The notes beneath the pieces were generated by a model that was given only the letters and a program-made list of their open reading frames with translations, did not search any database and was not told the DNA's origin. A stretch of 64,000 nucleotides of DNA from Gemmatimonadaceae bacterium. GTDB lineage: Bacteria; Gemmatimonadota; Gemmatimonadetes; Gemmatimonadales; Gemmatimonadaceae. A program made the translations under genes and the position numbers. This document shows, piece after piece, positions 3,191 through 50,001 of this stretch. The stretch is taken from contig JACVCD010000009.1 in the NCBI GenBank assembly GCA_016742275.1, positions 62,001 to 126,000 on the forward strand, in the 5' to 3' direction. The stretch's first letter is position 1. Every line of letters starts with the position of its first letter.

Positions 3191-4111
3191 ATGAAATATT
3201 CGATGCTCCGCGCTGTGGCGGGGCTCGGCGCCGTTCTCGCAGCGGCGACGCCTGCCACGGCTCCCCTCGCCGCGCAGGTCAAGGCCGCGCAGCCGGCACA
3301 GGCCAAGACGATGAAGGCTGCCGTACCGGCCGCTGCACCGGCCACCGCCGCCGCGCTGCCCACGACGGCCATTCCGGGTTCGAATGTCGTGGACGTGGTT
3401 GCACTCGACTACGCGTTCGAGATGCCGGCCAGCATCCCTGCTGGTCTCACCACGCTCCGTCTCACCAACAAGGGCAAGGAACTGCACCACGTCTACCTCG
3501 TGAAGGTGGATGCGGGCAAGACGGCCAATGATGTGGTGGGCTGGTTCAAGGCGGGTGGTCCGCCGCCGGCGTGGATGAAGCCGGTGGGTGGTCCGAATGC
3601 CGCAGTTGGTGCATCGCTGTTCACGACCAATCTCGAAGCTGGCAAGTACGTAGCGCTTTGCGTGATTCCGAGCCCCGGTGGTCCGCCGCACGTGATGAAG
3701 GGCATGGTGAAGGAGTTCACGGTCGCGCCGAGCAATCGCAAGGCGGTTACGCCGACGGCTGACATCACGCTCACGTTGAGCGACTACGCGCTCGAGTTCA
3801 ACAAGCCGCTTACCGCTGGCAAGCACATCGTGGCGGTCAAGAACAACGGTCAGCAGCCGCACGAGTTCTTCTTCGCCAAGCTCAACCCGGGCAAGACGCC
3901 GATGCAGATGGCGATGTTTGCCGAGAAGCCGGAAGGCGCACCGCCGGGCATGCCGATGGGCGGCATCACCGACATTCTCCCGGGTGCGACGGTCTACATC
4001 GAGATTGACGTGCAGAAGGGCGAGTACGGCTTCATGTGCTTCACGCCGGATAAGAAGGACGGGAAGCCGCACCTCGCGCATGGGATGATCAAGCAGATTT
4101 CGGTGAAGTAA
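3191..4111 (+). CDS. Exported protein with two cupredoxin-like domains
   Basis: A 306-residue protein with a signal peptide (first ~27 residues, ending PLAAQ) and an Ala/Pro-rich linker. Two similar beta-sandwich repeats follow: LDYAFEMPASIPAG...GKELHHVYLVK (about 75-115) and LSDYALEFNKPLTAG...GQQPHEFFFAK (about 200-235). Each has the N..G..HH/PHE..F arrangement of cupredoxin-type folds. The GKYVALCVIPSP and GEYGFMCFTPD segments supply a Cys per domain, as in blue-copper-like loops, but a full His-Cys-His-Met ligand set is not certain. Start at ATG 3191, preceded by GAGG. Copper binding is plausible, not shown. The gene ends at the first base of a long inverted repeat. Confidence 0.75.
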   Translation: MKYSMLRAVAGLGAVLAAATPATAPLAAQVKAAQPAQAKTMKAAVPAAAPATAAALPTTAIPGSNVVDVVALDYAFEMPASIPAGLTTLRLTNKGKELHHVYLVKVDAGKTANDVVGWFKAGGPPPAWMKPVGGPNAAVGASLFTTNLEAGKYVALCVIPSPGGPPHVMKGMVKEFTVAPSNRKAVTPTADITLTLSDYALEFNKPLTAGKHIVAVKNNGQQPHEFFFAKLNPGKTPMQMAMFAEKPEGAPPGMPMGGITDILPGATVYIEIDVQKGEYGFMCFTPDKKDGKPHLAHGMIKQISVK

Positions 4112-41777: not shown

Positions 41778-43694
41778 ATGACGCTTTGGCGTTGGTCGCC
41801 GTCTGTTTCTTCAGCTGAATCCGCCGTGCCAATTTCGCGTTCTTTGTTCTCTCGTTGCGCGTTGCGCGTGATTGCGCCGATGAGCGTGGCCGTTCGTTTC
41901 GTACGAACCGCCGCGCTCATCGGCGTCGCACTTGCCGCGTATCCATTGATCACGGGATCGCTTGCCGCGCAGGCAACAGGTCAGGGGACCGGTCAGGGTG
42001 TTCTGTCTGACACGGCCAAGACGACACAGGTGCAAACAGCACCGTCAGCGGATCCGTTGCGTGGCAATCTGTCCACGCTGGGTGCGTTGAGTGCGCAGGC
42101 GCGTTCACAGCAGGACGCGTTCGAACGCAATCATCGTCAGGGGCTGCGCTTCTACAACGGCGGAGCGGACGCCACCTGCGAAGTGCCGCTTGGTCGCATC
42201 TGCTACTGGAACAACAACGGCGATGTGCCGCCGCCAGCAGAACGGAGCGACGCCAAGATCGAGCGTGAACAGTTGCTCGACATGCTCGCGCGCGCGCAGA
42301 GCGCCGATCCCAAGGATGATTGGGTGAGTGGCATGCGGGTGCGTTACGCGATTGAAGGTCAGCAGCCCGACGTGGCGGTGCAGGCGGCGCGTGCTTGCGG
42401 CGGAACCACGTGGTGGTGTCACGCACTGCAGGGTCTTGCACTGCAGAACGCGAATCAGTTTGCCGCTTCAGAAGCGGCGTTTGCGCGGGCGCTCGAAACC
42501 ATGCCGGCGGCACAGCGTTGCGAATGGACCGACCTGACCATGTGGCTCGAGCCGTCGACACAGGGCGCGTACAAGGGGCTGGGCTGCGACAATCGTGCGG
42601 CGTTCAACAAGAAGGTGCTGCGTCTGGCGCAGCCGCTCTGGATGCTGCCGGGCAATGATGTCGCGAACGAATTCTATGCGCGTCACACGATGTCGCGTGT
42701 GCATTCACTGGCGCGCATTCCGTACGATCTGCAGTGGGGCAATGATCTGCTGGAATCGCAGATCCGCTACGGGTGGCCCATGTCCTGGTCGGTGCAGAAT
42801 GGCGGTGTGGCCGATCCGCGTCCGCCTCAGGTGATTGGTCACGAGCCTACACCGAGCTACGACTTCATGCCGACCCCGAGCGCGATCGAAAATCCGATTG
42901 GTGCTGGTGCCGATGCATGGGATCCCAGGCGCAAGAAGGCGCGCATGCGCTACGCGACGCGTTATGCGGCCGGCTTTGGTGCGTTGCCGCATCAGTTCGC
43001 GCGGTTCAAGCGTGGCGACACGACGCTGGTGGCGGGCGGCTTCCGTCTCATGCGAGAGCTCGAGATGGGACGTGCACCATACAACGCGGCGCTCACGCTC
43101 GATGCGCTCACCACCAACGCACCGGTGCAGGTGACCAAGGACGATGCGGGTGCCAATCGCGCGCTCCTCGCTCCAATTACGGCTCCGATGTTGGCCAGTC
43201 TCGAGGTGCTCGCGCCGACCGGCAAGCGTGCGGCGCGTGTTCGCGCTGCCGTACAGCCACTTCCGGCAGACACACGATTGTCGGACTTCCTGCTGCTGCA
43301 GCGTGGTGATCCATCGCCGACGCCAGCACTCGAACGTAATGCGGAACAGGCGTACGGCTCACTGGATATCGTGGGCGGCACACAGATCGGCATCTACTGG
43401 GAGATGTACCGCCCGGCCTCGCCGTCGTCGCCGCTGCAGGTTTCGCTTCGCGCCACTCGACTTGGGGCGAGTTTCATGCAGAGGCTGGGCAGCAGCGTTG
43501 GTTTGTCCAAGGCACTCACACCCGTCTCCATTCGCTACAACGATAACGGACGGCCTGATGGTGGATCGGGACGGAGTCTGACGCTCAACTTCCCCAGTGT
43601 TCCGGCTGGAGATTACCGACTGACGCTGGTGGTGTCGGGCTCCGGTATCACCGACAGCACGACGCAAACCATCCGCGTGCGCAGCGAGCGATAG
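41778..43694 (+). CDS. Exported protein of an unrecognised two-copy family (copy 2)
   Basis: A paralogue of the protein at 9712-11721. The ATG at 41778 follows GAGG closely and would give 638 residues with a 35-residue tail before the signal peptide; ATG 41880 (604 residues, signal peptide to GSLAAQ) is more usual but has no Shine-Dalgarno. Shared features: CGGTTWWCHAL, RCEWTDL, LGCDN, QPLWMLPGN, RYGWP and a C-terminal YWEMYRP then MQRLGSS, and the final beta-rich GDYRLTLVVSG. The central part is helical. No catalytic motif. Coupled to an outer-membrane protein, consistent with an envelope role. Confidence 0.78.
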   Translation: MTLWRWSPSVSSAESAVPISRSLFSRCALRVIAPMSVAVRFVRTAALIGVALAAYPLITGSLAAQATGQGTGQGVLSDTAKTTQVQTAPSADPLRGNLSTLGALSAQARSQQDAFERNHRQGLRFYNGGADATCEVPLGRICYWNNNGDVPPPAERSDAKIEREQLLDMLARAQSADPKDDWVSGMRVRYAIEGQQPDVAVQAARACGGTTWWCHALQGLALQNANQFAASEAAFARALETMPAAQRCEWTDLTMWLEPSTQGAYKGLGCDNRAAFNKKVLRLAQPLWMLPGNDVANEFYARHTMSRVHSLARIPYDLQWGNDLLESQIRYGWPMSWSVQNGGVADPRPPQVIGHEPTPSYDFMPTPSAIENPIGAGADAWDPRRKKARMRYATRYAAGFGALPHQFARFKRGDTTLVAGGFRLMRELEMGRAPYNAALTLDALTTNAPVQVTKDDAGANRALLAPITAPMLASLEVLAPTGKRAARVRAAVQPLPADTRLSDFLLLQRGDPSPTPALERNAEQAYGSLDIVGGTQIGIYWEMYRPASPSSPLQVSLRATRLGASFMQRLGSSVGLSKALTPVSIRYNDNGRPDGGSGRSLTLNFPSVPAGDYRLTLVVSGSGITDSTTQTIRVRSER

Positions 43695-43753
43695 ACCGCC
43701 GCCTGCCCGGGGAGCGTTTCCGGTCGCACGCCACGCGTGTCGGACACAAACGA

Positions 43754-43783
43754 AGCGGGGCACCTCTTAAGAGGTGCCCCGCT
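43754..43783. terminator. Bidirectional terminator, perfect 30-bp palindrome
   Basis: AGCGGGGCACCTCTT and its exact complement AAGAGGTGCCCCGCT abut with no spacer and are followed by TTT. It lies between convergent operons and ends both the exported-family gene and the sigma-factor operon. Confidence 0.88.
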
Positions 43784-43817
43784 TTTCGCATGTCGTGTTC
43801 GCTGATCTATCGCGGAC

Positions 43818-45314
43818 TTACCGTTTGACGATCACGATACCGACTGGTGATCCGTATTCGTCGCTGCCCTGCGGCAGTCCCGGTGGTGCCATCCACTGAC
43901 CACCGTCGGCGCGTACGATGATGCGATGTGTGCCGGGAGCGAGCTTGAGCTCGGCGCGCCAACGACCGTTGGAGTGCCGCTTCATCTGCGTGATGGACCA
44001 CGACGTGGCGTCGCCCATGAGCTCCACACTTTCGGCGCGCGGCGCATCGATGAGCAGCACAACGCGCATGGTGTCGCGCTCAACATCGATTGTCGGCGTG
44101 GCCGCCGATTCAGCCGTCACCGTGGTGGTGGCGCCGGCACTGAACGATGCCGCGTCAACGCGTCCCAATGTTCTGGCTTCGAAAGCCAGGATGCCACTTG
44201 GCGCACCGGCATGATCGTCACGCCAGGGCAGGCGTGAGATGCGCACACCCAGACCAACTACCGGTGAGAACCGGCCGCGTGATCGACTGCTGATGTCGTC
44301 GCGGAGTGTGGTGCCACCAACTGTTGCAGCGTTGGATGCCGCCGAACCCACCAGTGAAAGCCAGCCATTGACCGGCTGAACGACAGCCAGAGAGGCCACC
44401 GTCGGGACTTCCTGTGGCTTTGGCGCCAGCGCGTCCTGACTGATCCATGTGGCCATCGGAGCCGTGACCGACACCAGCCAGGTTGTGGGACCCGTATGGA
44501 AGCCTACAGACGCCATACCGCTGGCCAGATCGCGACGCTGCAACGTGCGCAATGTCCGATTGCTGACCATGCGACCTGCCGACGACGGCAGGTTGGCCAC
44601 CATGTCCGGTTCGTCGACCGTAATGGTTTGTGTGGTGACACGGCTGGCGCGCTCAAGCGACATGCCAAGCGAAAGCTCCACACCGGCATAGCGGGTAATG
44701 AGGCCCGCTTCTGCACGACCAACACGTCCAACATCGATGCGGCGCGAAATCGTGGTGTCTGTTCCGCGATTGTCGATGCCACCCGATGCCTGCGGCGACT
44801 GCAGGCCAGCGAGTCGCGCGGGAGTTCCATCGAGCGAACCGTGTCCGTAGCTGATCGCGCTCCACACCCGCTGTTCACCAAATCGCGCACGCGCGCGCAA
44901 CGCGAGCGTGCCCTGCATGGCTTCGTGACTGCTTACCGCATCACGAAGACTGAAGTTGCCGTTGCCGAGTGCAGAGAAGCGCACACGACCGAGGCGACCG
45001 ATGGGCTGCGTGGCACCAAACCAAACGTCGTTGCGCTGTGCGAGTGAATTGCCGCTGCCGTCGGGCAGCATGGCTACACCCAGCACCGAGAACGTGGCGG
45101 CATCGGTGACCGTGCCGATGGTAGCCGAGGGCGCGATGGGCGCTTCACCTCGTGCCTGCGCTTCCAGTGCGCGACCACCCGCGAGCGAAGCCAACGCTGC
45201 CGATAGCGCGCATGGCACGGCCCAGCGGTGACCCCGATGAGCGCGGCTCGAATCCGAGCTGCTCCCGGGCCACGGACGGTGCGTGCCGCGGTGGGTTCGG
45301 CGGGCGATCGTCAC
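43818..45314 (-). CDS. Large exported protein with C-terminal CBM48-like domain, sigma operon gene 4
   Basis: A 498-residue protein, last of the ECF sigma operon. A hydrophobic segment (~32-52, ending ALEAQA) preceded by Arg/His-rich residues suggests a signal peptide or anchor. Residues ~60-410 are Ser/Thr/Gly-rich and strand-like (SLRDAVSSHEAMQGTLALRA, ELSLGMSLERASRV), compatible with an outer-membrane barrel or beta-helix. The last ~85 residues read as an E-set/AMPK-beta glycogen-binding fold: VVLLIDAPRAESVELMGDAT, then WRAELKLAPGTHRIIVRADG. ATGA overlap with gene 3 (45311-45314). No family recognised for the barrel-like part. Confidence 0.7.
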   Translation of the reverse strand: MTIARRTHRGTHRPWPGSSSDSSRAHRGHRWAVPCALSAALASLAGGRALEAQARGEAPIAPSATIGTVTDAATFSVLGVAMLPDGSGNSLAQRNDVWFGATQPIGRLGRVRFSALGNGNFSLRDAVSSHEAMQGTLALRARARFGEQRVWSAISYGHGSLDGTPARLAGLQSPQASGGIDNRGTDTTISRRIDVGRVGRAEAGLITRYAGVELSLGMSLERASRVTTQTITVDEPDMVANLPSSAGRMVSNRTLRTLQRRDLASGMASVGFHTGPTTWLVSVTAPMATWISQDALAPKPQEVPTVASLAVVQPVNGWLSLVGSAASNAATVGGTTLRDDISSRSRGRFSPVVGLGVRISRLPWRDDHAGAPSGILAFEARTLGRVDAASFSAGATTTVTAESAATPTIDVERDTMRVVLLIDAPRAESVELMGDATSWSITQMKRHSNGRWRAELKLAPGTHRIIVRADGGQWMAPPGLPQGSDEYGSPVGIVIVKR

Positions 45315-46015
45315 GGGTCTGGAGGTCGAACCGGCTTTCGTTCCGTCGTCGCCGGTGTGGACGGCGAAACTCCGGCCGGGATCGTAGTCCGAACATAGCG
45401 ATTGAGGGCGTCGAGGGCCATACCGGGGCCACGCTGCGCATTCTTGGCGACGAGGACTTGGAGGCCCTGCAGCGCGTCATCACTCTGCGGGAGGCGGGAC
45501 AAGGTGTTGACGGCGTCCCGGGCATTGGGGCGGGGAACGCCGCGTCCGGCGATATCGGTTAGGACGACCAGCGCTGTGGCGGCCGATCCGGCGGGTCGAT
45601 TCCGTCTCACCGACTGCAGGGTCGCCTCGTCGAAGCCAACGCGGATGGCCTCGGCACCCGCCACCAGTTCGTCGACCGTACTTCCAGGGCCCAGGGCTTC
45701 CTTGGCGCTGTTGAGGGCGGCAGCCAGCTCACGAACCGTGCGAACGATGCGTTCACTGCTGATGCGTCGCGCGGCGCCCTCGAGCGCCCGGTTGATGAGC
45801 GGTCGTGTGGGCAGGCCCATACTCTGCGCATCTTCGAATAATCCGCGCAGCGTATTGGCAGTCACCGAATCGAAGCGACTCTCGTCGAAGCGAATCTGAT
45901 CACGCAGTGCGGTCGCCGGCGATACAGGCTGTGCCTGCTGACGCAGGGTGTCCGGCTGAACCGGCGACCCTGCGAGATGGGCAAGCAACAACCACACCGC
46001 CGGTGCTGCATTCAC
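45311..46015 (-). CDS. Exported helical protein, sigma operon gene 3
   Basis: A 234-residue protein with a short signal peptide (MNAAPAVWLLLAHLAGSP). The mature part is almost wholly alpha-helical: LRGLFEDAQSMGLPTRPLIN, RALEGAARRISSERIV, VRELAAALNSAKEALG, ALVVLTDIAGRG, LQGLQVLVAKNAQRGPGMAL. The pattern looks like a helical-repeat solenoid. Proline-rich C-terminus. Overlaps both neighbours by ATGA, so production is stoichiometrically tied to them. No known family recognised. Confidence 0.68.
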   Translation of the reverse strand: MNAAPAVWLLLAHLAGSPVQPDTLRQQAQPVSPATALRDQIRFDESRFDSVTANTLRGLFEDAQSMGLPTRPLINRALEGAARRISSERIVRTVRELAAALNSAKEALGPGSTVDELVAGAEAIRVGFDEATLQSVRRNRPAGSAATALVVLTDIAGRGVPRPNARDAVNTLSRLPQSDDALQGLQVLVAKNAQRGPGMALDALNRYVRTTIPAGVSPSTPATTERKPVRPPDP

Positions 46016-46632
46016 GGCGATGTCCCTTCCACGATCACGGCGTTGGTGGGGCCAAAGCCGGCATCAGGTACCTGCGGCGCCAGAGGATCGACCAGCCACT
46101 GCTGGCCATCGACCACAAACGCGTACGTGTGTCGTCCCGGAGAGAGTGGCACGCGGGCGGACCAGGTGCCGTCGGCCGAACGACGTATCATCGGCGTGGC
46201 GTTTTCATCCCAGCCGTTGAAGTCACCGACCAACGACACTTCACGCGCTGATTCGGGCAACGTCAGATCGAAACGAATGGCACCATCGCTTTCTTCTCTC
46301 GTCACGCCGACCGGTTGTGCTGCACCAATCGCGCCGGTGAACACACTGTCGGCGTGCCGCTGACTTTCTCCGGGTCGCCATGGGCGAGCAACGGTCACGA
46401 CGAGTACAGCAGCAGCAGCGGCGCCCCACCACCACTGTGGGCGCGGGAAACGGCGGGTGGCGGCCGTGTCAGCGGCCGTCAGCACGCTCTGCGTCGCGAA
46501 CGCGATGGTTTCCGCGGACGTGGGCGCCATGGCCGCATACGACGTGCGCAACCGGGACTCGATGGCCGCAGCGAGAATCGGCGCGACTTCGAGATCGTCG
46601 TCCGACGGGAATGGGAGGTCGTGGTCAGCCAC
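46012..46632 (-). CDS. Membrane protein with CBM48/AMPK-beta-type domain, probable anti-sigma factor, gene 2
   Basis: A 206-residue protein in the anti-sigma position. The N-terminal ~60 residues are cytosolic and helical (LRTSYAAMAPTSAETIAFAT); one membrane helix follows (WWWGAAAAAVLVVTVARPW, ~67-86). The exported part is a single glycogen-binding-like E-set domain: RFDLTLPESAREVSLVGDFN, GWDENATPMIRRSADGTW, VPLSPGRHTYAFVVDGQQW. This matches the CBM48/AMPK-beta pattern with conserved Trp and Asn-Gly-Trp. Anti-sigma role is inferred from topology and gene order; there is no ZAS zinc motif (HxxxCxxC). Overlaps gene 3 by four bases and lies 30 bp after the sigma gene. Confidence 0.78.
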   Translation of the reverse strand: MADHDLPFPSDDDLEVAPILAAAIESRLRTSYAAMAPTSAETIAFATQSVLTAADTAATRRFPRPQWWWGAAAAAVLVVTVARPWRPGESQRHADSVFTGAIGAAQPVGVTREESDGAIRFDLTLPESAREVSLVGDFNGWDENATPMIRRSADGTWSARVPLSPGRHTYAFVVDGQQWLVDPLAPQVPDAGFGPTNAVIVEGTSP

Positions 46633-46662
46633 AACGCCCCCGGGAATGCGATATGACGGCGC

Positions 46663-47208
46663 TCACTCGGGATCTCCGAAAGAACGACCGAGCAGCGCCC
46701 GCAGCCGTTCGCTGCCGCGCTTCACCCGCATCTTGAGGGCCGATTCGCCCGCACCCGTCATGGCCGACATTTCCGTGTACTCCAGCCCCTCGGCGTACTT
46801 GAGCAACAACGCTTCCCGCTGCAACGGATCGAGCTGCGAGAGCGCCCGCAGCAACGCCACGTCTTCGACTCCCGCGGGAGCCCCAGGCGGTGGCGCCGGC
46901 GCCGTATCGAGTGCGGCGTCGTCCTGAACAAACCGACGGGTTCGCCGGCCACGGGAGGTGAGATAGTTGCGGCACTGATTGGTCAGGATACGGAACAGCC
47001 ATCCACGGAACTGATCGCGTTCGTCATACCGCCCGATCGCGAGATACGCCCGCAGGAATGACTCCTGAACCACGTCCTCCGCATCCGCCCGCTCTCCCAG
47101 CATGTGGTATGCGAACCGCCAGCACGCGTCGTAGTAGCGCGAGACCAGCATGCCGAAGGCCTCGCCGTCGCCGCCGCGTGTTCGGACGACCAGTTCCGCG
47201 TCCGTCAT
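46663..47208 (-). CDS. ECF-type RNA polymerase sigma factor, gene 1
   Basis: A 181-residue sigma-70 family protein of the extracytoplasmic-function class. Region 2 reads FAYHMLGERADAEDVVQESF then LRAYLAIGRYD with RGWLFRILTNQCRNYL; region 4 reads LSQLDPLQREALLLKYAEGL then YTEMSAMTGAGESALKMRVK. Region 3 is absent as expected. ATG 47208 is preferred over GTG 47211. It is first of a four-gene minus-strand operon with two ATGA overlaps and the terminator at 43754, so it probably drives expression of envelope proteins that sense or bind glycans. Confidence 0.93.
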   Translation of the reverse strand: MTDAELVVRTRGGDGEAFGMLVSRYYDACWRFAYHMLGERADAEDVVQESFLRAYLAIGRYDERDQFRGWLFRILTNQCRNYLTSRGRRTRRFVQDDAALDTAPAPPPGAPAGVEDVALLRALSQLDPLQREALLLKYAEGLEYTEMSAMTGAGESALKMRVKRGSERLRALLGRSFGDPE

Positions 47209-47287
47209 CACAGAATCAACATCATACGTGCGCGGCTCGTCACAGTCGAACCGTGGGGCAAGCGCCGCCCACGGCCCCCGGACGCGC

Positions 47288-47330
47288 CGGATGACACCTT
47301 GTACCCCGGGCGTGACGCCAGGGTCATCCG
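47288..47330 (-). terminator. Possible terminator after the DUF2628 gene
   Basis: Arms CGGATGAC (47288-47295) and GTCATCCG (47323-47330) enclose an inner GGCG-tga-CGCC stem. The right arm overlaps the DUF2628 stop codon and there is no strong T-run, so confidence is limited. Confidence 0.35.
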
Positions 47331-47935
47331 CGCATCGAGGCCAGTGCCTGCACAGCCATCATGGCCAGCACGATGCCCATTCCCGTGCGGTTCACTCCGC
47401 CAAGGCGTCGCATGACGGCCAGTGAATCCAGGCCATCCACATCCTGCGTTTCAGCAAAGCGGCGGGCCGCACGGGCTCGGCGGAACAAGAACCAATTGGC
47501 CGTGCCACCGGCCGCCAATGACAACGACACACGCACGGCGGCAATGAGATTGACGATGTACTGATTCTCGGGCTTGAGCATCTCTTCCATCGTTTGCGGA
47601 ATCACCGCGTCCGCAGCGAGCAAACGAAAGGCGACCAGAGGCGCGAGGAAGAACACCGCAAACTGCAGATACAGCTTGCGGTAGATGAACCAGAGCGGAC
47701 CGAACAATGCCGCGCTCCAGTTCCACGTGGGAACGAACGACGGGTCTTCAAAGAACGGCTGCAGCTTGCGGCGATACACGCTCTCCCAGCGCGGACCTAC
47801 ATACGCGGCGAAGAATGCTTCATCGCGCGATGCACTCGTTGCCGATTGCTGCGCCCAACGCGGCAACTCCGGCGGAGTCGGCGGTGAACCGGACGTGTCA
47901 TCCGGCAACGACTGCTGATCGTGTGACTCACTCAT
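47324..47935 (-). CDS. DUF2628 membrane protein
   Basis: A 203-residue protein. A hydrophilic Pro/Ser-rich N-terminus (~1-45) precedes the DUF2628 core: a FFEDPSFVPTWNWSAALFGP motif followed by WFIYRKLYLQFAVFF and further hydrophobic helices (ANWFLFRRARAA near the end). The function of the family is unknown. It starts 13 bp after aguA and is probably the last gene of the aguB-aguA operon. Confidence 0.8.
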   Translation of the reverse strand: MSESHDQQSLPDDTSGSPPTPPELPRWAQQSATSASRDEAFFAAYVGPRWESVYRRKLQPFFEDPSFVPTWNWSAALFGPLWFIYRKLYLQFAVFFLAPLVAFRLLAADAVIPQTMEEMLKPENQYIVNLIAAVRVSLSLAAGGTANWFLFRRARAARRFAETQDVDGLDSLAVMRRLGGVNRTGMGIVLAMMAVQALASMRG

Positions 47936-47948
47936 GCGGACGTACTCA

Positions 47949-49046
47949 TCAAACGCCAGCGGGCAGCACGTGGCGCACCGATGGCTGCTGTTGCGACAGG
48001 CAGTGTAGCGTGCCGAGCCCCCATACGAGGTCCACGGCGTGGATGCCGATCACATCGTGATTGGGCAGCAACGATGCCAGTGTGTTGAGCGCCACGCGAT
48101 CATTGCGATCGTTGAATGTGGGCACGAGACACACGCCGTTGCCGAGATAGAAGTTGGCGTAGCTTGCCGGCAAACGGGTGCCGTCCATGATGACCGCACG
48201 CGGATAGGGCAGCGTCACCACGCGAATGGCGTCACCGCGAGCATCTGTTGCGCCCTTGAGACGCTCGAGATTGTCGAGTGAACGCGCGTGGTTCTCGTCG
48301 CGCGGATCCTCTTCGTGTGCCAACACCATCACACCCGGTGCCACAAAGCGTGCGATGTCATCGACATGTCCATGTGTGTCGTCGCCAACGCAGCCTTCGC
48401 CCAGCCAGATCGTTTTCGAAATGCCGAGGTAGTCAGCAAATGCACGTTCGTAGTCAGCGCGGGTGTAGCCCGGATTCCGCACCTGCACATCGCTCAGCAA
48501 CCACTCTTCGGTCACCAGCATCGTGCCGCGGCCATCGGTTTCGATGCCGCCACCTTCGAGCACCAGCGGTGCACCGGTGTCATGACGAACGGCCGTGATG
48601 ACCGGGAGTTGCGACACCTCGGCCATGCGCAGCGGCACCTGCTGATCGAGCGCGAAGTTGTCGTACTTGGCCCACGCGTTGAAATCCCAGCGTACCCACG
48701 ACACGCTGCCGTCGGCCTGATGTATGGCCGTTGCACCCGAATCGCGCAGCCACACACGATCGGTGGACTGCACGTGCAGACGATACTGCGACGCATCCAC
48801 GTCGTGCATGGAAAGGCACGCGCGCGCTTCCTCAGCCACATCTTCGCTGTGGCAGAGAATCTCCACGCGCTCGTATGGTGCGAGCGCGCGCACGATTTCC
48901 GCGTATACCCACGGAATGGGACCGAACTTGCCAGGCCAATCGGGCTCGTGATGCGGCCAGCCAATCCACGTGGCATCGTGCCGTTCCCACTCCGCCGGCA
49001 TGCGGCGAGCTGGGACGCCGGGCAGCGTACTCACTTCGCGAGCCAC
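47949..49046 (-). CDS. aguA: Agmatine deiminase
   Basis: A 365-residue enzyme of the PPAD (guanidino-group-modifying) superfamily. It hydrolyses agmatine to N-carbamoylputrescine and ammonia. Conserved motifs: AEWERHDATWIGWPH (N-terminus), DRVWLRDSGATAIH (~103), LVLEGGGIETDG (~165), DTHGHVDDIARFV (~223) and the nucleophilic Cys in LGTLHCLSQQQPS (~353). Length is normal. It overlaps the end of aguB by 16 bp, so the two pathway enzymes are produced together. Confidence 0.95.
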   Translation of the reverse strand: MAREVSTLPGVPARRMPAEWERHDATWIGWPHHEPDWPGKFGPIPWVYAEIVRALAPYERVEILCHSEDVAEEARACLSMHDVDASQYRLHVQSTDRVWLRDSGATAIHQADGSVSWVRWDFNAWAKYDNFALDQQVPLRMAEVSQLPVITAVRHDTGAPLVLEGGGIETDGRGTMLVTEEWLLSDVQVRNPGYTRADYERAFADYLGISKTIWLGEGCVGDDTHGHVDDIARFVAPGVMVLAHEEDPRDENHARSLDNLERLKGATDARGDAIRVVTLPYPRAVIMDGTRLPASYANFYLGNGVCLVPTFNDRNDRVALNTLASLLPNHDVIGIHAVDLVWGLGTLHCLSQQQPSVRHVLPAGV

Positions 49047-49951
49047 CGATTGAGGATCGGGCCGTAGGCGTCGATGCGACGATCACGCAGGAACGGCCAG
49101 TTACGCCGGGTCTCTTCGATGAGCGCGAGATCGCACTCCGCAATGAGAATGGCCGGCTCGGTACCTGCCTGCGCGAGATAGCGGCCAAACGGATCGCTGA
49201 TGAACGACTGACCGAAAAACTCGAGACCTTCGGTGCCAGGCTCCGGTTCAAAACCCACACGATTGGGCGAGGCGACGAACACACCGTTGGCGATGGCGTG
49301 CGCGCGCTGCGCAGTGCGCCACGCGTCCACCTGCGCGTCGCCAAAGGTGGCCTTTTCGGCTGGATGCCAGCCGATGGCCGTGGGATAGAACAGGACCTGC
49401 GCGCCGAGCAGCGCGGTGATGCGCGCGCCTTCGGGATACCACTGATCCCAGCAAATCAGCACGCCGATATCGGCGTACTTGGTACGCCACACGCGGAATC
49501 CGTTGTAGCCGGGATGCGTGTCGGTGCGCTGATCGCCGGTCACGTCACCGGGCGCGAAGTAGTACTTCTCTTCGAAGAGGGGATCGTGCGGGATGTGCAT
49601 CTTGCGATACGTACCCAGCACACTGCCGTCGGCGTCAATGACCGTGGCCGAATTGCGATACAGCCCTGGCGCCTCGCGCTCGTAGTAGGGCACGACAATG
49701 ACAATGTCGAGCTCCTTGGCGAGTGCCTGGAATGTGTGCACGATGGGGCCGTCGGCCGATTCCGCTATATCAAAGCGCTCGGGCTTGACCGTCTTGCAGA
49801 AGTAGGGCGCGTTGAAGAGCTCCTGCAGACACACGATCTGCGCACCCTTGGCAGCCGCTTCGCGCACGCGCGTGACGGCCTTGGACACATTGGCGGCGAG
49901 GTCGTCGGACGCCGTGTCCTGAACGATCCCGATGGTGACGATGTTGGACAT
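49031..49951 (-). CDS. aguB: N-carbamoylputrescine amidase
   Basis: A 306-residue nitrilase-superfamily hydrolase completing agmatine breakdown to putrescine, CO2 and ammonia. Catalytic Glu-Lys-Cys: CLQELFNAPYFC (~48), YRKMHIPHDPLFEEKYYF (~125), and VLICWDQWYPEGAR (~163). The FNAPYFC and DPLFEEKYYFAPGD signatures are specific to AguB. Start ATG 49951 (MSNIVTIGIV) follows CAGG; an upstream TTG-like start would add seven residues. First gene of aguB-aguA-DUF2628. Confidence 0.95.
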   Translation of the reverse strand: MSNIVTIGIVQDTASDDLAANVSKAVTRVREAAAKGAQIVCLQELFNAPYFCKTVKPERFDIAESADGPIVHTFQALAKELDIVIVVPYYEREAPGLYRNSATVIDADGSVLGTYRKMHIPHDPLFEEKYYFAPGDVTGDQRTDTHPGYNGFRVWRTKYADIGVLICWDQWYPEGARITALLGAQVLFYPTAIGWHPAEKATFGDAQVDAWRTAQRAHAIANGVFVASPNRVGFEPEPGTEGLEFFGQSFISDPFGRYLAQAGTEPAILIAECDLALIEETRRNWPFLRDRRIDAYGPILNRWLAK

Positions 49952-50001
49952 GCCTGAAAGATAGCAGAACACGCGGTCTGGAACCCGGTTCTGCTCTCGT
50001 T

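Follow-up and report, generated by a model that had tools for sequence, protein, structure and literature searches.

In a 64,000-nucleotide window (the whole stretch of DNA analysed here, contig C19:62001-126000 of a 4.57 Mb Gemmatimonadaceae genome), we examined a four-gene operon on the minus strand. It spans 43753-47244, including a promoter-like element and a terminator. The genes encode, in order, an extracytoplasmic function (ECF) sigma factor, a predicted single-pass membrane protein with a CBM48 domain, an exported helical protein, and an exported barrel-like protein with a second, C-terminal CBM48 domain. All four reading frames, their order and the perfect terminator had been reported in an initial annotation of this DNA and were confirmed on the minus strand. 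The closest named record that we found is a Gemmatimonadaceae metagenome-assembled genome (MAG; L007), at 63% identity.

Composition of the operon

The first gene (46663-47211; all operon coordinates are on the minus strand) encodes 182 amino acids, with an ATG at 47208 as possible a start as the one at 47211. Pfam models for sigma-70 regions 2 (Sigma70_r2, 9.5e-20) and 4 (r4_2, 2.4e-11) match above their cut-offs, and the NCBIfam sigma70-ECF model scores 95 bits against a cut-off of 42.9. With regions 2 and 4 in a short chain, the protein is an ECF sigma factor. Downstream lies the 206-amino-acid membrane protein (46012-46632), which comprises a predicted cytosolic N-terminal segment (residues 1-65, 46438-46632), a transmembrane helix assigned by hydropathy (residues ~66-86, 46375-46437) and the inner CBM48 (residues ~116-203, 46024-46287). 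The 206 residues first described as its N-terminus are thus the entire protein, of which about 65 are cytosolic.

The exported helical protein (234 amino acids, 45311-46015) belongs to no Pfam family. It is followed by the exported barrel protein (498 amino acids, 43818-45314), whose last part is the outer CBM48 (residues ~415-498, 43821-44072). The last three genes overlap at 46012-46015 and 45311-45314, where the shared bases read GTGA rather than the ATGA originally noted. Between the sigma and membrane genes the window has a 30-base gap; in most relatives the two overlap. The terminator, a 14-bp perfect stem, lies at 43753-43784, and folding of its region gave a z of -7.3.

The four genes are conserved as a unit

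A profile built from four membrane-CBM48 sequences matched 160 of 249 Gemmatimonadota genomes, with 1-8 copies in each. From these matches we fetched 40 loci in five families, chosen for diversity and not at random (f6, f7 and f9 were left out). All four genes were present in 39 of the 40, and the remaining locus ends at a contig edge. The initial annotation had treated the genes as one module, a claim open to refutation by their neighbourhoods; with 39 of 40 loci complete, it stands as a conserved unit. The order sigma, membrane-CBM48, helical, barrel-CBM48 recurs in 34 of 42 analysed loci. The barrel gene comes first in three others, sits upstream in opposite orientation in one and has changed places with the helical gene in three; the one row left reflects a frameshifted frame and is an artefact. 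Adjacent genes mostly overlap by start and stop codon across the 42 loci, and r between the distance matrices of the four proteins is 0.71-0.83, part of which is expected from shared descent alone.

The host genome contains six AMPK1_CBM matches and three complete modules: the one in the window (C19), L070 (C4) and L072 (C17). It also carries an orphan barrel-CBM48 and helical pair with neither sigma nor anti-sigma gene (L071:4559-6772, C13), by eye with a LytTR-type response regulator and a histidine kinase nearby. At L072 a lipoprotein gene (3631-4071) heads the operon, as it does in L108 and L110, and may be a fifth component in one lineage. We rejected what looked like a sigma-CBM fusion in L124, because its sigma end reads like a frameshift; a merged helical-barrel frame in L138 is possibly a frameshift likewise and was not used.

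An equivalent set occurs in Nitrospirota. A Nitrospiraceae MAG (L008) encodes a lipoprotein with a CBM48, an ECF sigma factor, a membrane protein and a helical protein. Its membrane protein combines an anti-sigma N-terminus, a helix and a CBM48, and its helical protein aligns to our helical profile with an hhalign probability of 96. These four genes also stand side by side in another Nitrospirae MAG, the genome of L012 (locus L297).

Predicted folds of the exported proteins

The AlphaFold2 model of the helical protein has nine helices and a mean predicted local distance difference test score (pLDDT) of 87.3, with a core near 97. Foldseek found no PDB chain below E 0.001 for it, and the best structural rows were designed helical repeats; the absent match does not prove that the fold is new.

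In the model of the last protein (mean pLDDT 63.5), a signal-like helix precedes 11-12 long strands and the CBM48. The barrel part (predicted strands at residues 96-359, 44238-45029) best matches OmpG, with Z 12.4 and a root-mean-square deviation (rmsd) of 3.7 over 191 residues, and the listed matches are AMPK beta and porin-type barrels. This protein is, on the strength of its model, quite probably an outer-membrane barrel. Since the Nitrospirota outer CBM48 sits on a lipoprotein, the barrel may serve mainly as an outer-membrane anchor; and because the outer CBM48 follows the barrel in the chain, it should also face the periplasm.

Both CBM48 domains, proposed earlier as AMPK-beta-type, are real, the inner by sequence and the outer by predicted structure. 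The window's membrane protein matches CBM_48 (4.2e-10) and AMPK1_CBM (1.1e-9), as well as PDB sequences of the AMPK beta CBM, and both Pfam models match all 45 membrane proteins. In the last protein AMPK1_CBM reaches 9.5e-5, below its curated cut-off, and it matches 33 of 43 barrel proteins. Residues 414-497 nevertheless superpose on the AMPK beta CBM (4yee) with Z 12.9 and an rmsd of 1.4 Å over 81 residues. Lack of an E-set fold would have counted against the initial annotation; the model of the last protein contains an AMPK-beta-type fold, and the finding survives.

In AMPK, carbohydrate is contacted by W100, K126, W133, L146 and T148 (PMC2642990). The inner CBM48 has the W100 equivalent (W141) in 45 of 45 members and the W133 equivalent (W179) in 32, with an aromatic residue at the L146 position in 44. 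It keeps N150, which we take to be a further AMPK contact, in 31 of 45. In the outer CBM48, W439 is present in 43 of 43 members and W474 in 39. From these residues, glycan binding by at least one of the two domains is plausible, the chances being about even.

A probable anti-sigma factor without a zinc motif

The membrane gene directly follows the sigma gene in nearly all loci, mostly overlapping it. The initial annotation had noted that the usual zinc motif is missing, and this holds: the window's protein has no cysteine, and HxxxCxxC occurs in none of the 45 aligned members. Non-zinc class I anti-sigma domains are frequent, making up ~44% of one set (PMC7406223), so the missing motif is no objection to an anti-sigma role.

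Deep-branching members carry the clearer signal. In alignments their N-termini retain an LxxYLDGE-type start, and a profile of these N-termini searched against 177,635 PDB sequences ranked RsiW first (E 0.0056) and RseA second (0.024). The Nitrospirota membrane protein matches RsiW at E 0.0019. Thirteen of the 45 members match NF052375, an NCBIfam anti-sigma model, over their N-terminal and membrane parts, at best 1.6e-8 and below its cut-off. The window's member has lost the LxxYLDGE signature, and its role is therefore assigned by homology. We regard it as very probably a class I anti-sigma factor without a zinc motif, its N-terminal segment being a degenerate anti-sigma domain.

A promoter-like element and a candidate regulon

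An element, TGTGACG-N14-GATGTTG (47217-47244), precedes the sigma gene and is kept upstream of its orthologues in the genus. Across the genus the shared form is GTGACG-N14-G(A/C)TGTTG, usually with 7-8 bases between it and the ATG; in the window its sole match (47217-47243) lies 8 bases before the sigma ATG. A sigma-70 promoter scan gave one weak match. In other families the corresponding element is TGTGAC-N15-17-GGGT at about -40. The element moves with the first gene of the operon, standing before the lipoprotein gene in L072 and before the barrel gene in L070, L122 and L125 (the last two read by eye).

We searched for further sites by sequence patterns rather than a weight matrix. In 30 genomes of the genus the N14 pattern had ~64 matches, against ~10 for a reversed control. 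We read 54 distinct sites, of which 11 stand before the sigma gene of the operon. Of the other 43, 15 have a SusC-like domain 205-621 bases downstream on their own strand, compared with one of 27 sites when the spacing was altered to N15-17 (Fisher p about 0.003, from nearly the same counts). At least five receptor loci account for these 15 sites, and in most of them a SusD-like or lipoprotein gene comes next; SusD_RagB neighbours accompany the candidate targets in L211 and L214.

In the host genome, an exact site precedes C21:102975-105953, which matches TIGR04056 at 460 bits (cut-off 368) and whose lipoprotein neighbour has no Pfam match. On C29, a second SusC-like gene has a one-mismatch site ~410 bases ahead of it. 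TIGR04056 has 34 matches in this genome, 10 of them exceeding the cut-off, so that a site placed at random would seldom fall there. Control of SusC-like genes by this sigma factor in this genus is, as judged from these sites, probable.

The element type of the other families gave no comparable excess here: TGTGAC-N-GGGTMTA had no match in the host genome, and TGTGAC-N15-18-GGGTA had nine, versus 11 for the reversed control. Two of those nine are exactly the promoters of the genome's two other modules. The form seen at those two promoters, TGTGAC-N16-GGGTACAG, also occurs in the host genome 66 bases before a serpin-like lipoprotein gene (L288, C7:396-422). At L247, L253, L257 and L258, in other families, TGTGAC-N-GGGTNTA stands close in front of lipoprotein or outer-membrane-type genes and hints at further envelope targets.

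A putative trans-envelope switch and its alternatives

We lean towards reading the module as a trans-envelope ECF switch with feedback on SusC/D-type importers. The inner-membrane anti-sigma factor, with its degenerate class I domain, single helix and periplasmic CBM48, would hold the sigma factor, while the outer-membrane barrel would bear the second CBM48 on its periplasmic side and the exported helical protein would act between the two CBM48 proteins. A periplasmic oligosaccharide, possibly imported by SusC/SusD receptors, could engage the CBM48 pair, and this engagement might alter the anti-sigma grip on sigma. From TGTGACG-N14-G(A/C)TGTTG the sigma factor would transcribe its own operon; its targets in this genus would also include TonB-dependent importers of the SusC/SusD type. 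The membrane topology, the relay from one CBM48 to the other, the ligand and the release step are parts of this model that we infer, along with the anti-sigma role of the window's own member; the gene set, its co-conservation, the folds, the anti-sigma relationship of deep members, the promoter element and the SusC association have computed support. That all of this amounts to an undescribed class of trans-envelope ECF system in Gemmatimonadota and Nitrospirota, in which an anti-sigma factor and an outer-membrane anchor (barrel or lipoprotein) carry paired CBM48 domains that work with a new helical protein to detect a periplasmic glycan and to regulate SusC/D importers, is a bolder claim, to which we give slightly less than even credence.

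Several observations weigh against this switch. Neither CBM48 conserves K126 of AMPK, and the outer one has mostly lost N150; because the lysine is not kept, though the tryptophans largely are, glycan sensing should be read as a proposal. This is also where the initial annotation's overall interpretation must be tempered: the conserved unit, both CBM48 domains and a very probable anti-sigma factor stand, and its glycan-sensing part stays conjectural. The same architecture might instead use its CBM48 domains as contact modules for protein or peptidoglycan, and sense envelope integrity or outer-membrane load, in the manner of Dma systems, rather than imported sugar. Such a role would fit the missing lysine, the absence of W179 in 13 of 45 members, the anchoring of the outer CBM48 by either a barrel or a lipoprotein, the Dma precedent of an outer-membrane barrel joined to sigma without a sugar domain, and the other-family sites before lipoprotein and outer-membrane-type genes. 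Most members nevertheless keep both AMPK-type tryptophans, and the SusC-like targets in the genus indicate nutrient uptake, which leaves sensing by contact unlikely though the strongest competitor.

The regulon evidence has weaknesses too. Its sites were chosen for carrying both boxes, several SusC sites are orthologous, so that their count overstates independence, and the related element of other families stands before lipoprotein or unrelated genes instead of SusC. A different sigma factor with a similar promoter might account for the SusC association, the module controlling only its own operon. The SusC sites are distant (205-621 bases from the domain), unlike the operon site, and in the host genome just two SusC sites occur, one exact and one with a single mismatch. 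Yet these sites share the boxes and 14-base spacing of the operon element, and the association is lost when the spacing is changed; we consider a second sigma factor rather improbable.

The barrel model, finally, is of moderate confidence, and the anti-sigma link passes through homologues at modest E-values: no Pfam or NCBIfam anti-sigma model matches the window's membrane protein significantly. The anti-sigma position assigned earlier to this protein is thus very probably right through its deep homologues and its adjacency to sigma, and not through a direct match of its own. This lack of a direct match and the short cytosolic part might suggest that the protein is no anti-sigma factor, that sigma is controlled otherwise and that the three downstream genes are its main targets, forming an envelope glycan-binding complex, but the matches of deep homologues to RsiW, RseA and NF052375 and the gene's place after sigma in nearly all loci, usually overlapping, make this very unlikely.

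Relation to known systems

Literature searches combining ECF or anti-sigma with CBM48, AMPK1_CBM or glycogen-binding domains found no description of such a system; existing ECF groups were not compared. The nearest counterpart in working, though not in membership, is Dma, reported only from Bacteroidota, in which one polypeptide joins an anti-sigma domain, a helix, a disordered tether and a barrel; Dma2 acts chiefly on its own operon and on polysaccharide utilisation loci (PMC13088901). Both arrangements place an ECF sigma factor beside an anti-sigma function (probable here) linked to an outer-membrane barrel (predicted here). Here, in contrast, the window and the sampled loci encode the two ends in separate genes, each with a CBM48, a helical partner is present, and a lipoprotein can replace the barrel.

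FecI-FecR-FecA likewise combines an ECF sigma factor, an inner-membrane regulator, an outer-membrane barrel and control of importers, the last two a prediction and a candidate here. Unlike that system, this operon's proteins lack its regulator and receptor domains (no FecR, plug or TonB-dependent receptor Pfam domain in the 45 membrane or 43 barrel proteins), and the candidate importers are encoded elsewhere. With the class I factors RseA, RskA and RsiW (PMC7406223) the membrane protein very probably shares a cytosolic helical anti-sigma domain, along with one helix and an exported C-terminal part, and like RseA and RskA it has no zinc motif; it differs in that its exported part is a CBM48 and the window member's N-terminus is degenerate. 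The AMPK beta glycogen-binding domain (PMC2642990) has the same fold, both glucan-stacking tryptophans found in the window proteins, and a regulatory rather than catalytic use, whereas the domains here are exported, bacterial and tied to sigma, and K126 is not conserved.

Beyond the initial annotation, our analysis adds the predicted outer-membrane barrel, the Nitrospirota equivalent set and a candidate regulon of the module's own operon and SusC-like receptors. To our knowledge, little is known of signalling in Gemmatimonadota. The module offers the phylum an ECF system that is widespread and often present in several copies, with its promoter element defined and targets proposed, and signal transfer from the outer membrane to sigma becomes testable in a new architecture. 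If the proposed switch is right, an AMPK-type glycogen-binding domain serves as a sensor in bacterial transmembrane signalling.

Neighbouring genes

Immediately upstream on the same strand lies a DUF2628 membrane-protein gene (47324-47935), whose end is kept upstream of the operon in the genus. Beyond it, at 47949-49972, are overlapping genes that by eye resemble agmatine deiminase and N-carbamoylputrescine amidase. A gene at 41778-43694 runs towards the operon from the opposite strand and encodes a 638-amino-acid exported protein with no Pfam match, and it probably also uses the operon's palindromic terminator.

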